From NCBI GenBank assembly GCA_009379995.1, contig WHSR01000015.1:1-64000 (forward strand): a DNA stretch of 64,000 nt, given 5' to 3'. The translations under genes were made by a program, and so were the position numbers. The notes under the pieces were generated by a model that was given only the letters and a program-made list of their open reading frames with translations, made no database searches and was not told the DNA's origin. Positions 7,565-40,056 of the stretch are shown here, in pieces. The stretch comes from Streptosporangiales bacterium (lineage in GTDB: Bacteria; Actinomycetota; Actinomycetes; Streptosporangiales; WHSR01). Each line of letters starts with the position of its first letter. Position 1 is the first letter of the stretch.

Positions 7565-7628
7565 GCCGAGATCCATGTTGTGGGGGTCCAAACCGGACAA
7601 AACGACCCTCACAACATGGATCTCGGCG
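7565..7628 (-). repeat. Dispersed palindrome, copy 2 (inverted orientation)
   Basis: A 64-bp palindrome with arms GCCGAGATCCATGTTGTG and CACAACATGGATCTCGGC. Its loop reads CCAAACCGGACAAAACGA, the reverse complement of the loop in the other three copies, so this copy is inserted in the opposite direction. It lies between the 3' end of the ABC ATPase gene and the SDR gene, where it would form a strong RNA hairpin. Confidence 0.9.
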
Positions 7629-13317: not shown

Positions 13318-14190
13318 ATGGAACTGGACGCGATCCCGCAGCTCGTCCTGGATGGATTGCTGACCGGCAGCTTCTACGCGATGCTCGCGGTCAGCTTCGG
13401 CCTCATCTTCGCCACCACCCGGACGTTCCACTTCGCGCACGCGCTCACCCTCACCGCTGGTGCGTACGCGGCGGTGGTCGTCGGTGAGCGGGGTCTGCCG
13501 TTCGTCTTGGCCCTGCTCGCAGCCGGTGCCGTCGGCGGCGCGGTCGGCTGGCTGACCGACGCCGGCCTCTACCGCCCGCTGCGCCGCCGTGGCGCCCTCT
13601 CCCTCAACATCTTCCTGGCCTCCCTCGGTTTGCTGATCGCCGGGGAGGCGGTGATCCAGTTCGTATTCGGGCCGAACTCGAGGCCGCTGCGCGGGTTCAC
13701 CGCCGCCGGGCTGCAGGCGGGGCCGATCGCCACCGGCACCGTCCAGGTGGTGATGGCAGGCGTGAGCTGGGGCCTGGTGATCTTGGTCGCCTGCTTCCTG
13801 CACTTCACCCGGTACGGGCTGGCGGTCCGTGGGGTGGAGAGCAACGCATTCCTCGCCGAGGCCTTCGGCATCGACAGGGGACGGATCTTCGGCCTGGTCT
13901 TCGCGATCGGGTCGGTCATGGCGGGTGTGGGCGGGGCGCTGCTCGCGCTGCAGGACACCGCGACGCCGACCATGGGGCTCGCCCCTATCCTCGCCGCGTT
14001 CATCGCGGTGTTCATCGGCGGGATCGGCAGCGTGGCCGGCGCGGTGATCGGCGGGGTCCTCCTCGGCCTGCTGGAGCACCTCGGCGGCATCGTGCTGCCC
14101 GGGTACCTGCAGACCATCGTCGCCTTCGTGCTCCTGTTCGTCGTGCTGCTGGTGCGGCCGAGCGGGCTGGTCGCCCGGGCTCGAGGGTAG
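13318..14190 (+). CDS. livH: Liv-type ABC permease, LivH
   Basis: A 290-residue permease with about eight hydrophobic segments. LLTGSFYAMLAVSFGLIF and AFIAVFIGGIGSVAGAVIGG are family hallmarks; the latter is the C-terminal conserved loop. The ATG directly abuts the stop codon of livJ with no spacer, so coupling is likely. LivM follows after 18 bases. Confidence 0.9.
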   Translation: MELDAIPQLVLDGLLTGSFYAMLAVSFGLIFATTRTFHFAHALTLTAGAYAAVVVGERGLPFVLALLAAGAVGGAVGWLTDAGLYRPLRRRGALSLNIFLASLGLLIAGEAVIQFVFGPNSRPLRGFTAAGLQAGPIATGTVQVVMAGVSWGLVILVACFLHFTRYGLAVRGVESNAFLAEAFGIDRGRIFGLVFAIGSVMAGVGGALLALQDTATPTMGLAPILAAFIAVFIGGIGSVAGAVIGGVLLGLLEHLGGIVLPGYLQTIVAFVLLFVVLLVRPSGLVARARG

Positions 14191-14208: not shown

Positions 14209-15171
14209 GTGCAGTTCTACATCGACATCGTCAACGCCGCACTGATCGTCGCGGTCCTCGGCTTCTCGGTGAACCTGCTCGTCGGCTACACCGGGCTGGT
14301 CTCGATGGCGCAGGGCGCGGTGTACGGGGTGGGCTCGTACGCCGCGGCGGTCGCCGCCACCAAGGCCGGGCTGCCGTTCCCGCTGACGATCCTGGCCTCC
14401 ATCGCGGCCGCGACGCTGGTGTCCGTCCTCATGTCGTGGCCGGCGCTCCGGGTGAAGGGCGAGTACCTCATCCTGCTCACCCTGGCGGTCCAGCTCGTGC
14501 TGAGCGGGGTGTACGAGGCGTGGGTGCCGGTCACCGGGGGTACCTCCGGCATCGCCGGCATACCGCAGCCGGCCTTCGGTGCCGAGTTCCCCGGCCCGGG
14601 GACGCTGCTGCCGTTCGTGCTGGCAGTTTTCGTGGTCGGGTTCGGCGTGTCGCTGTGGGTCGGTCACTCGCCGTTCGGCCGGACACTGCGGGTGATCCGG
14701 GAGGACGAGAGCGCCGCCGAGAGCGTGGGCAAGCACGTCACCTACTACAAGGTGGCCGTGTTCGCGCTGGCGGGCGCGCTCGCCGGGCTGGCCGGCGGCA
14801 CGTACGCGCACTACCAGGCGTTCGTGAACCCGGTCAGCTTCTCGCTCGACCAGTCGATCTTCCTCATGGCGGTGGTCGTGCTCGGCGGCGCGGGAAACCT
14901 GTTCGGCACGGTGATCGGCGCCGCGGTGCTCGCCTCGTTCCCTCAGCTGTTGTTGCTGGCGAACTTCGACAACCAGGTAGCGGCGGTGGCGCAGCGGTTC
15001 CTGTACGGGCTGCTGTTGGTGCTGTTCATGCTCTACCGGCCGCAGGGACTGGTACCGGAATACTTCCGGCTGCGCCGGCGTACTCCTGGTCGTCCCCTTG
15101 GCCGTGATCTTGCAGAAATTCAAATCACGGATTTGAATTTCTGCAAGATCACGGCCAAGGGGGGGTCGGTT
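14209..15171 (+). CDS. livM: Liv-type ABC permease, LivM (frame continues into LivG)
   Basis: The permease has about ten hydrophobic segments, NLLVGYTGLVSMAQGAVYGV near the N-terminus and VVLGGAGNLFGTVIGAAV near the end. The start is GTG at 14209. The permease part ends about residue 295 at LVPEYFRLRRRTPG. There is no stop codon there: the frame runs through the 69-bp palindrome (23 codons, LGRDLAEIQITDLNFCKITA) straight into LivG, giving one 579-residue ORF ending at 15948. I list the permease part here with an arbitrary end at the LivG GTG. Either a LivM-LivG fusion is made, or LivG is also started independently. Confidence 0.82.
15094..15162. repeat. Perfect 69-bp palindrome at the LivM/LivG junction
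   Basis: Two perfectly complementary 33-base arms (15094-15126 and 15130-15162) flank the 3-base loop ACG. The left arm begins CCCCTTGGCCGTGATCTTGC and the right arm ends GCAAGATCACGGCCAAGGGG. It is AT-richer than its surroundings at the centre. Its 69 bases are exactly 23 sense codons. Its right end supplies an AAGGGG-type ribosome site before a GTG at 15172. Confidence 0.97.
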
Positions 15172-15948
15172 GTGTTGCGCGCCACCGACCTGCACAAGAG
15201 CTTCGACGGGGTCAAGCCGGCCGACGGGCTGTCCATGGTGCTGCCGGCGGGCCGGATCACCGCGCTGGTCGGACCGAACGGCGCCGGCAAGACGACCGTG
15301 TTCAACCTGCTGACCGGCTTCGTGCCGCCCGACAGGGGTCGGGTCACACTGCACGCCGAGGACATCACGCACCTGCCGACCTGGCAGCGGGCTCGGCGCG
15401 GGCTCGTCCGCTCCTTCCAGGACGTACGCATCTGCGAGGGCTTGTCGGTGCTGGACAACGTGCGCACCGCCATCCCGCGGCAGGCCGGGGAAACGGTTGG
15501 CTCACTCCTTCTCGCCCCGGCGGTGATCCGGGCACGGCGTGCGCATGTCGAGGCGGCGATGTCGTACCTGGAGTTCGTCGGGCTGGCCGGCCGGGCGAAC
15601 GAGCCGGCGGCGGCGCTGCCGTTCGGCGAGCACAAGCTGCTGGCCATCGCCCGGCTGTTGGCGACCGAGGCGGACGTGCTGCTGCTGGACGAGCCGGCCT
15701 CCGGCGTCGATAGGGCGTGGGCGGAACGGGTGCTTGACCTCATCCGGCGGCTCGCCGACGAAGGTAAGACGATCTGCCTTGTCGAGCACAACCTCGATGT
15801 CGTGCGGGCCCTGGCGGACCGCGCCTACTTCATGGACGCGGGGCGGATCATCGCCGAGGGCACGCCGGAGGAGCTGATGGCCGATGAGCACCTCGCCGCC
15901 GTCTACTTCGGCACCCGATCGGGGAGGCCGGGCCATGCTGGAGGTTGA
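15172..15948 (+). CDS. livG: Liv-type ABC ATPase, LivG
   Basis: The ATPase has Walker A GPNGAGKTTVFNLLTGF, the LivG-type insert and switch region LVEHNLDVVRALADRAYFM, and Walker B VLLLDEPASGVD. The usual LSGGQ signature is altered to ALPFGEHKLLAIARLL, as in some LivG relatives. I place an independent start at GTG 15172 (258 residues), with AAGGGGGG about seven bases upstream. That ribosome site is contributed by the palindrome. The same frame is also open from livM, so a fused permease-ATPase is equally possible. The end overlaps livF by 14 bases. Confidence 0.85.
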   Translation: MLRATDLHKSFDGVKPADGLSMVLPAGRITALVGPNGAGKTTVFNLLTGFVPPDRGRVTLHAEDITHLPTWQRARRGLVRSFQDVRICEGLSVLDNVRTAIPRQAGETVGSLLLAPAVIRARRAHVEAAMSYLEFVGLAGRANEPAAALPFGEHKLLAIARLLATEADVLLLDEPASGVDRAWAERVLDLIRRLADEGKTICLVEHNLDVVRALADRAYFMDAGRIIAEGTPEELMADEHLAAVYFGTRSGRPGHAGG

Positions 15949-16645
15949 CGGGCTGCGCACCGGCTACCGCGGCCGGCCGGCGGTGTTCGACGCCTCGCTG
16001 TCGGTGGCCGAGGGTGAGATCGTCGCCCTCGTCGGCCACAATGGCGCCGGAAAGACGACGACGCTGAAGTCGGTGGTGGGGCTGCTGCCGGCCTGGCAGG
16101 GCGGGGTGCGGTTTCGCGAGGAGGACATCAGCCGGTCCCGTGCCGCCGACAACGTGCGCCGCGGCCTGTGCTTCCTGCCCGAGGACGACTTCGTGTTCAC
16201 CGATCTCACCGTCGAGGACAACCTCACGCTGGCCCGCTTCGGCGTGGGCAGCCAGGGCCGGGCGTCACGGGACGCGGATGCGGTACGGGCGGAGATCTTC
16301 GAGGTACTGCCGGTCCTCCGGGAGCGGAGCAAGCAGCGGGCGGGCACGCTGTCCGGCGGCGAACGGAGGATGCTGAGCATCGGCATGGCGCTGGCCGCCG
16401 AGCCACGGATGCTGCTGGTGGACGAGCCGTCCCTGGGCCTGGCCCCGGTGCTGGTCGAGCGGGTGATGGACTTGCTGGCCGAGCTGGTGCGGCGCAAGGG
16501 GCTGAGCGTCCTCATGGTGGAGCAGAACGTCGACCAGGCGCTGCGCATCGCGGACCGTTGCTACGTCATGCGGGCCGGCCGCATCGTGATGGAGGAAAGC
16601 GCCGCACGGCTCGCGGCCCGCGACCAGTGGTGGGACCTCTTCTAG
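15935..16645 (+). CDS. livF: Liv-type ABC ATPase, LivF
   Basis: A 236-residue ATPase starting MLEVDGLRTGYRGRPAVF. Walker A is GHNGAGKTTTLKSVVG, signature LSGGERRMLSIGMALA, Walker B MLLVDEPSLGLAP, switch MVEQNVDQAL. GLAP after the Walker B is typical of LivF. The ATG at 15935 is inside the last codons of livG, which indicates coupled translation. It completes the importer operon; the next gene is convergent. Confidence 0.92.
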   Translation: MLEVDGLRTGYRGRPAVFDASLSVAEGEIVALVGHNGAGKTTTLKSVVGLLPAWQGGVRFREEDISRSRAADNVRRGLCFLPEDDFVFTDLTVEDNLTLARFGVGSQGRASRDADAVRAEIFEVLPVLRERSKQRAGTLSGGERRMLSIGMALAAEPRMLLVDEPSLGLAPVLVERVMDLLAELVRRKGLSVLMVEQNVDQALRIADRCYVMRAGRIVMEESAARLAARDQWWDLF

Positions 16646-36903: not shown

Positions 36904-38191
36904 CGGCAACCCCTTCACTGGAGAGGAAATCGAGCATCGTTTCGGCCGCCGCGGCGGCGAAGGCCGGGTCGTTGATCGTGCTGTCCAGCTCCCGCAGCGC
37001 GACCCGCGGAGGTAGGGCGCGGCGCAGCGCGTCGACGAAGGCCGCGTTCGCCGCGGGGTCGTGCAGAACGCCGCCGGGGCTGCCGACCTCCGACCACCCC
37101 CGGCGGGGTATCAGCACGGCGACCGGACCGGCCGCCGTGCCCAGCCGGCGGGCCATCTCCTCGGCGACGGCGACGAGTTCCTCCGCGCTGGCCCGAACGT
37201 TGGTGTTGTTCGCGTTGTGGTGGTGCGTCGGCCGGGCGCGGAGGGCGGCGGGGATCGTGTCGGCGGCGGCGAAGCAGTGGTACTCCAGCCCGCCCGGTGC
37301 GACGACCTGGGGTACGCCGCGGCGGCCGGCCGCCGTCAGCCGCCCCGGCCGTACCGGCGCGTAGATGTCCGCCGGGTACAGCTCGCCGAGCAGCTCGTGC
37401 GTGGTGAGGTCGAGCACCCCGACGAACGTCCCCTCGTCGATCAGCCGTTCCATGGCGGAGCCGGAGGCTCCCGAGGCGTGGAACGGCACGGTCTCGACGC
37501 CCGCCCCGGCGAGTCGCTCCATGGCGGCGGTGACCGCGGCGTGCGTGTTGCCGAACGCGGTCACCGCGACGACCGGCCCCCGCGCGGCGGGGCTCTCCCG
37601 CGCGTCTGGGGCGAGAGCTTCCGCCATTCCGGCGACCGCCCCGGCCGCCTGGCGCAGCACCCGGGCGGTGACCGGGTTCGGGCCTCCCAGCAGGTCGCCG
37701 ACGGAGAAGAGCACGGCGATGTCGCTGTCGGCGATGAACCCGCGGATGTCACCGGACGCCACCGTCGACACGACGAGCTTGGGCACGCCGAGCGGCAGCT
37801 CGCGCATGGCGCCGGCGGTGATCGCGGTGCCCTGGTTGCCGCCGAGGCCCACCGCGCCGGCGAGGTCACCGCGGCGGTACCAGTCGGCGAGCAGCCGGCC
37901 AGCGCCCTCGGCCATGGCCGCCATCGCCTCGTCCCGGCGGGCCCGGTCACGTAGCTGGGCAAGCCGTTGGCCAGCGGCCCGGGCCACCTGCTCCGCGGGC
38001 ACGTCGGGATGAATGGGCCATTCACCCGCTAGGTCCGGGTGAGTGGACCATTCATCGGCAGAAGTCAGGCCGACGTCGACCACCCGCACCGGCCAGCCGC
38101 GGCGGCGAAGCTCGTCGCGCAGGAACGCCGCCTCCGCTCCCTTGGTGTCGGCGGTGGCGAGGACCGCTATCGGTGGCCGGTCTTGGGTCAT
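36800..38191 (-). CDS. Tm-1-like ATP-binding domain protein (UPF0261)
   Basis: A 463-residue protein of the Tm-1/UPF0261 family. It shows IAVLATADTKGAEAAFLRDE, LGGNQGTAITAGAMRELPLG, VSTVASGDIRGF and the C-terminal IPRRGWSEVGSPGGVLHDP. The last about 45 residues after LDFLSSEG are low-complexity and read through the start of the alcohol dehydrogenase gene, which suggests loss of an earlier stop. A 30-bp duplication near the N-terminus repeats a D/E-EW-x2-HPD unit. Its ATG overlaps the aldolase stop. A role in sugar-acid or lactone catabolism is likely but the activity is not established. Confidence 0.85.
   Translation of the reverse strand: MTQDRPPIAVLATADTKGAEAAFLRDELRRRGWPVRVVDVGLTSADEWSTHPDLAGEWPIHPDVPAEQVARAAGQRLAQLRDRARRDEAMAAMAEGAGRLLADWYRRGDLAGAVGLGGNQGTAITAGAMRELPLGVPKLVVSTVASGDIRGFIADSDIAVLFSVGDLLGGPNPVTARVLRQAAGAVAGMAEALAPDARESPAARGPVVAVTAFGNTHAAVTAAMERLAGAGVETVPFHASGASGSAMERLIDEGTFVGVLDLTTHELLGELYPADIYAPVRPGRLTAAGRRGVPQVVAPGGLEYHCFAAADTIPAALRARPTHHHNANNTNVRASAEELVAVAEEMARRLGTAAGPVAVLIPRRGWSEVGSPGGVLHDPAANAAFVDALRRALPPRVALRELDSTINDPAFAAAAAETMLDFLSSEGVADEPGTGTRDRDGHRAGDGRGGTGDDARRGPVRAR
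38009..38054. repeat. Two palindromes 30 bp apart inside the Tm-1-like gene
   Basis: TGAATGGGCCATTCA (centre near 38017) is a perfect inverted repeat with seven-base arms, and TGAGTGGACCATTCA, one mismatch, follows exactly 30 bases away. They translate to the duplicated EW-x2-HPD unit, so the repeat may be only a coding duplication. The 30-base spacing is about three helical turns, so an operator pair within the 5' coding region is another reading. Confidence 0.55.
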
Positions 38192-38871: not shown

Positions 38872-38894
38872 GTGTCCTCCTGTGCCCTGACGGC

Positions 38895-38966
38895 AGGGCC
38901 CGGACGGCTCGTCCGCGCGAGGGGGGTACGCGTGGGGTGGGTACGCGGACGAGCCGCCCGGGCCCT
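38895..38966. terminator. Strong inverted repeat between creatininase and aldolase genes
   Basis: AGGGCCCGGACGGCTCGTCC (first 20 bases of a 23-base left arm, 38895-38917) pairs with the right arm at 38944-38966 with a single mismatch. The loop of 26 bases is GC-rich. Located between the creatininase stop and the aldolase start on the minus strand, it may terminate creatininase transcription or attenuate the operon. There is no U-tract. Confidence 0.55.
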
Positions 38967-38976
38967 ACCCGCGCCG

Positions 38977-39992: not shown

Positions 39993-40056
39993 GCCGAGAT
40001 CTATGTTGTGGGGGTCATTTTGTCCGGTTCGGTGGCCCCACAACATGGATCTCGGC
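39993..40056 (+). repeat. Dispersed palindrome, copy 3
   Basis: Arms GCCGAGATCTATGTTGTGGG and CCCCACAACATGGATCTCGG (with one extra C at the end), loop TCATTTTGTCCGGTTCGGTG. It lies in the 5' region of the GH4 gene, ending 30 bases upstream of its ATG, and just beyond the creatininase promoter. Confidence 0.9.

Follow-up and report, generated by a model that had tools for sequence, protein, structure and literature searches.

The LivM-LivG reading frame considered here, from a Streptosporangiales bacterium, passes from a permease to an ATPase through a perfect palindrome. The question raised by this locus is what the palindrome is, and whether it made the fusion, regulates it, or came to it as one copy of something mobile. 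The window, that is the whole stretch of DNA analysed, comprises 64,000 nucleotides of contig WHSR01000015.1 of a draft genome (5.8 Mb, 168 contigs, 94% complete). We consider it probable that the palindrome belongs to a dispersed, high-copy family of REP-like repeats of the Streptosporangiales, usually hairpins at gene 3' ends, and that this copy lies in-frame in a linker and is translated within a fused permease-ATPase. The features concerned are as follows.

13318..14190, + strand: ORF upstream within the operon, assigned as a LivH-type permease (an inference from operon order and sequence)
14209..15948, + strand: LivM-LivG permease-ATPase reading frame, 579 codons, with the element in its inter-domain linker
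15094..15162, no strand assigned: palindromic repeat copy, arms 15094-15126 and 15130-15162, loop ACG, in-frame product PLGRDLAEIQITDLNFCKITAKG
15103..15153, no strand assigned: element core CGTGATCTTGCAGAAATTCAAATC-ACG-GATTTGAATTTCTGCAAGATCACG, the portion common to other copies
15157..15165, + strand: purine tract AAGGGGGGG at the palindrome's right-hand end, a possible, hairpin-masked ribosome site for GTG 15172
15935..16645, + strand: ORF of a LivF-type ATPase, downstream in the same operon (name likewise inferred from operon order and sequence)

The palindrome and its reading frame

The two arms are exact reverse complements of 33 bases each around a 3-nt loop, ACG, just as a first-pass annotation of this DNA had described (69 bp, 33/3/33, zero mismatches). 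No other perfect inverted repeat in the 64 kb window is as long; the runner-up has 26-nt arms at 92%. As RNA, the palindrome has a predicted fold of -70.5 kcal/mol, with z = -11 against shuffles. Further long inverted repeats are found near gene ends at 38892-38969 and 38008-38056, with arms of 26 nt at 92% and of 21 nt at 90%.

Read from the GTG at 14209, the 69 bases fall in phase, and the ORF 14209-15948 is stop-free, which bears out the claim that 23 in-frame codons (PLGRDLAEIQITDLNFCKITAKG) keep a 579-residue permease-ATPase frame open. By Pfam, BPD_transp_2 covers residues 5-273 and ABC_tran residues 339-497; the palindrome-encoded residues, ~296-318, fall between the two. Judged from its sequence, a fused LivM-LivG permease-ATPase protein is likely, and the product, if fused, would span the peptide stretch RDLAEIQITDLNFCK.

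The right arm had also been said to make a ribosome site for a GTG at 15172. This GTG is indeed preceded by a AAGGGGGG tract, made in part of the right end of the palindrome. However, the AAGGGG is paired within the predicted hairpin (RNA fold), so that such a ribosome site would be at best masked, and this pairing argues for translation of LivG by read-through of the fused frame.

A dispersed repeat family

With at most 3 mismatches allowed, the 27-base arm has 77 + 63 genomic matches, and the paired pattern CGTGATCTT-N18-48-AAGATCACG occurs at at least 134 genomic places versus 0 for the reversed control. Multiple exact genomic copies were what the first-pass annotation had named as the sign of simple mobility against its other readings, and these were found: the arm recurs exactly at several unrelated loci, and the paired hairpins share the core. 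Several interiors occur within the family (ATTCAAATC, ATTTCAAGACC and ATGTTCGAA, plus a hybrid left arm, ACGGAGAAAGACAAAGCGG), each of which, hybrids excepted, is mirrored on the opposite side by a largely complementary sequence. One core of 52 bases and one of 53 recur identically at five unrelated loci each with differing flanks, which suggests duplicative spread.

Relative to re-dealt arms, arm covariation reaches z = 12 at the outer positions 1-3, beyond the core, and is lower at the inner positions 18-25 (z = 5-7); the core itself is nearly invariant and is therefore uninformative on covariation, either way. In tandem copies, G-U and A-C mismatches occur with equal frequency (53 vs 59) and gave no signal of RNA-level selection. 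No Rfam family was matched at gathering score, either here or in the arrays of the relatives described below; the only matches were sub-threshold and microRNA-like, which is what any perfect hairpin would yield. A single motif of the DNA-uptake type was considered and rejected: exact single cores in 575 kb are almost all half-elements, and hence there is no free-standing motif. Chance or an assembly artefact, for which the draft state of the genome in 168 contigs might speak, has a negligible probability, since it is already refuted by the copy number; the copies also lie within contigs and at unrelated genes, and the element recurs in independently sequenced genera.

Another dispersed family of palindromes, CCGAGATCTATGTTGTGGGG...CCCCACAACATAGATCTCGG, of 60-62 bp, is represented in the window by two copies (7566-7626 and 39994-40055). 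The genome has 74 paired copies of this second family, which was absent from 120 other genomes of the order; the 25 copies examined include 12 convergent, 10 tandem and 1 divergent.

Position of the copies relative to genes

For 94 paired copies with flanks, genes were called by a codon-usage script. The copies were found between convergent genes in 54 cases, tandem genes in 28 and divergent genes in 5, with 5 more inside ORFs and 2 at the edge of a contig. The 492 pairs of neighboring genes in this DNA are convergent in 86 cases, tandem in 318 and divergent in 88, so that copies are strongly enriched at convergent pairs (54/94 copies vs 86/492 gene pairs, Fisher p = 1e-16). At convergent pairs the core has a median distance of 15-16 nt from each stop codon, and all but one of the tandem copies (27/28) are nearer the upstream stop, with medians of 20 nt to that stop and 107.5 nt to the next start. 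A TGA in the arm is the stop codon of the gene in 23 cases. The usual site of the element is thus at the 3' ends of genes, above all between convergent genes, where the arm often supplies the TGA stop codon and the hairpin most likely ends or protects transcripts from both sides.

At one locus (L178:2262-4180, G000:C117), a palindrome marks the point where an aldehyde dehydrogenase gene is truncated, and an alcohol-dehydrogenase-like gene follows, an arrangement that suggests a deletion or rearrangement ending at the repeat.

In-frame copies and the origin of the fused frame

In-frame copies were also observed in three other proteins. In an AdnB helicase-nuclease the element coincides with a gap of 21 residues in the alignment with PDB 6ppu; in CbiG it stands between CbiG_mid and CbiG_C; and in a glycosyltransferase it falls within an N-terminal extension. 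Two further copies lie at gene ends, one in the tail of a GGDEF protein and one at which the aldehyde dehydrogenase is cut at profile position 217 of 461. The LivM-LivG copy belongs to the in-frame minority: its inter-domain linker probably tolerates 23 extra residues, and the palindrome would be translated as part of the fused permease-ATPase.

Palindrome-free LivM-LivG frames are common in the order Streptosporangiales, for example G024:C44 with 618 open codons, G003:C115 with 622 and also G057, and one is found elsewhere in the same genome (C33:70983, 667 open codons). For this reason the palindrome probably did not create the LivM-LivG architecture, and as far as the sequences tell it is not needed for it; the suggestion that it fused two subunits is not supported, and of the three options offered by the first-pass annotation the interruption of a native fusion is the best. 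The aligned palindrome-free linkers are diverse and mostly >25 residues long. The linker here, minus the palindrome, has ~19 residues between PQGL and LRATDL and is shorter than those of the relatives, so native linker sequence may have been replaced; by the same token, an origin from two separate genes has to be taken seriously as a rival. We favor insertion into, or partial replacement of, the inter-domain linker, as for the AdnB and CbiG copies.

Under the rival arrangement, the palindrome would have inserted between two distinct genes, with loss or overrunning of the LivM stop, and would thereby have given the fusion, and LivG may still start at GTG 15172 by way of the purine tract of the right arm. 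The short palindrome-less linker, the existing spacing between AAGGGGGG and the GTG, and the many LivG homologues of the order that are encoded as separate genes are in its favor, but the palindrome-free frames in the order and in this very genome count against it, as do the upstream stop that precedes the element in 24/28 tandem copies and the pairing of the ribosome site in the predicted hairpin; we regard it as unlikely, though of appreciable weight. Much more improbable is a locus-specific regulatory hairpin selected for tuning LivG expression. Its great stability and its position over the possible LivG ribosome site would suit such a role, but copies of the same element stand at so many unrelated genes, the tandem intergenic copies lie mostly behind the upstream stop and far from the next start (median 107.5 nt), and, with an open frame running through the palindrome, ribosomes would unfold the hairpin. 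The earlier proposal of such tuning found no positive support, the AAGGGG itself being hairpin-paired, and hairpin control of LivG is a possible, unsupported reading.

Relatives in other genera

The pattern CGTGATCTTGC-N12-40-GCAAGATCACG is present in 22/299 genomes of the order, and the named genomes with the core are those of Sphaerimonospora, Microbispora, Actinomadura, Nocardiopsis, Streptosporangiaceae assemblies and a few scattered others. The interiors vary by genus yet stay largely self-complementary, and the copies in these other genera include 26 convergent, 26 tandem and 0 divergent. A mirror array is centered on the core in Sphaerimonospora and Microbispora, its TGATCTTG motif returning 53 and 106 bases away in either direction; no such array was found around the copies in the genome of the window. 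Four loci of these two genera (L116, L143, L158 and L125) carry mirror-symmetric arrays of ~300 bp with a 53-bp period, between convergent genes and with the same CGTGATCTTG foot.

A broader proposal, which we offer tentatively and with more doubt than belief, is that of a palindrome superfamily extending over the Streptosporangiales. Its CGTGATCTTGC foot would be invariant and its interior free to drift as long as it stays self-complementary; it would spread without RAYT, and would serve as the shared 3'-end hairpin of convergent genes, occasionally entering a frame as a ready-made protein linker and forming mirror arrays in Sphaerimonospora and Microbispora, whose 53-bp (five-turn) period would suggest a DNA-binding partner.

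The question of a mover

No match to PF01797, the Y1/RAYT transposase, was found in the 94% complete genome. Among relatives, RAYT is present in 7/14 genomes and none of the 8 genes fetched is flanked by the core, and RAYT was rejected as the mover on these grounds. Another possibility is that the element is a MITE, an insertion sequence that has lost its interior and is mobilized by a DDE transposase with specificity for CGTGATCTTGC ends. The conserved inverted ends, the variable interior and the many copies, some of them identical, are what a MITE would have; against it, no full-length element with these ends lies in ~575 kb around the copies, no constant direct repeat is seen by eye in their flanks, and the sole insertion sequence found between half-elements has different ends and occurs once. 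We therefore think a MITE origin rather improbable, at a somewhat lower level than the two-gene history of LivM-LivG. The insertion sequence in question (L092:2029-3013, G000:C145) is degenerate, ISL3-like and single copy in the genome, and each of the two half-elements around it is without the foot on the side of the insertion sequence; with its single copy and different ends it was rejected as a mover.

Comparison with known elements

REP elements are described between convergent genes within ~20 bp of 3' ends, where they supply stop codons, and intragenic copies are known in UvrD/Rep and RecBCD genes (PMC3733652). The present family is like REP/BIME elements in its high copy number, its hairpin, its mostly convergent or co-directional intergenic sites near 3' ends (54 convergent, 28 tandem, 5 divergent) and its termini giving stop codons. 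Some REP copies are likewise in frame in repair genes of the UvrD/RecBCD type (PMC3733652), as is the AdnB copy here, and CGTC REPs are also without a dedicated transposase (PMC3733652). The family differs from REP/BIME in having no GTAG/CGTC tag, no Y1/RAYT gene of the kind that GTAG-class repeats flank, and a host in the Actinomycetota, which are not among the phyla listed for REP elements (PMC3733652). Its stems are ~25-33 bp compared with 5-13 bp. REP units are 20-40 bp and often head-to-head dimers; the elements here are single palindromes of 45-70 bp, and in Sphaerimonospora and Microbispora they form mirror arrays with a 53-bp period. Within 14 nt of the core, GTAG/CTAC occur in 2 and 3 and CGTC/GACG in 6 and 8 of 94 copies, which does not amount to a tag. 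Because tags and Y1/RAYT are absent, we file the family as REP-like in behavior and position, outside the tagged REP classes.

Rickettsia palindromic elements also lie in-frame within unrelated proteins (PMC10969869), as seen here for LivM-LivG, AdnB, CbiG and the glycosyltransferase. However, they are ~150 bp long and nearly half intragenic (PMC10969869), compared with 45-70 bp and about 6 of 95 known copies here, and by description their feet set them apart from this family; their CGTC end is not a mark of the present copies (CGTC/GACG in 6 and 8 of 94). Bidirectional intrinsic terminators at convergent genes share the position, symmetry and stem stability, but the copies of this family have no U tract after the hairpin in their flanks, and they are dispersed and share sequence. 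Bacterial MITEs are similarly small, non-coding and present in many copies with inverted repeats; here, in contrast, there is no parent element in ~575 kb around the copies. The open-access literature yielded nothing relevant on the core sequence or on actinobacterial REP families.

Significance

The family described here would be a REP-like one in the Actinomycetota, the abundant REP-like families in the literature surveyed having been described outside that phylum. It has no known tag or transposase, its foot stays constant from genus to genus as its interior varies with compensating changes, and it shows in-frame insertions within conserved proteins. An untagged family without a known transposase is the interesting part, and it may provide a test case both for the spread of palindromic repeats and for the question of whether they terminate transcripts of convergent genes when no U tract is present.
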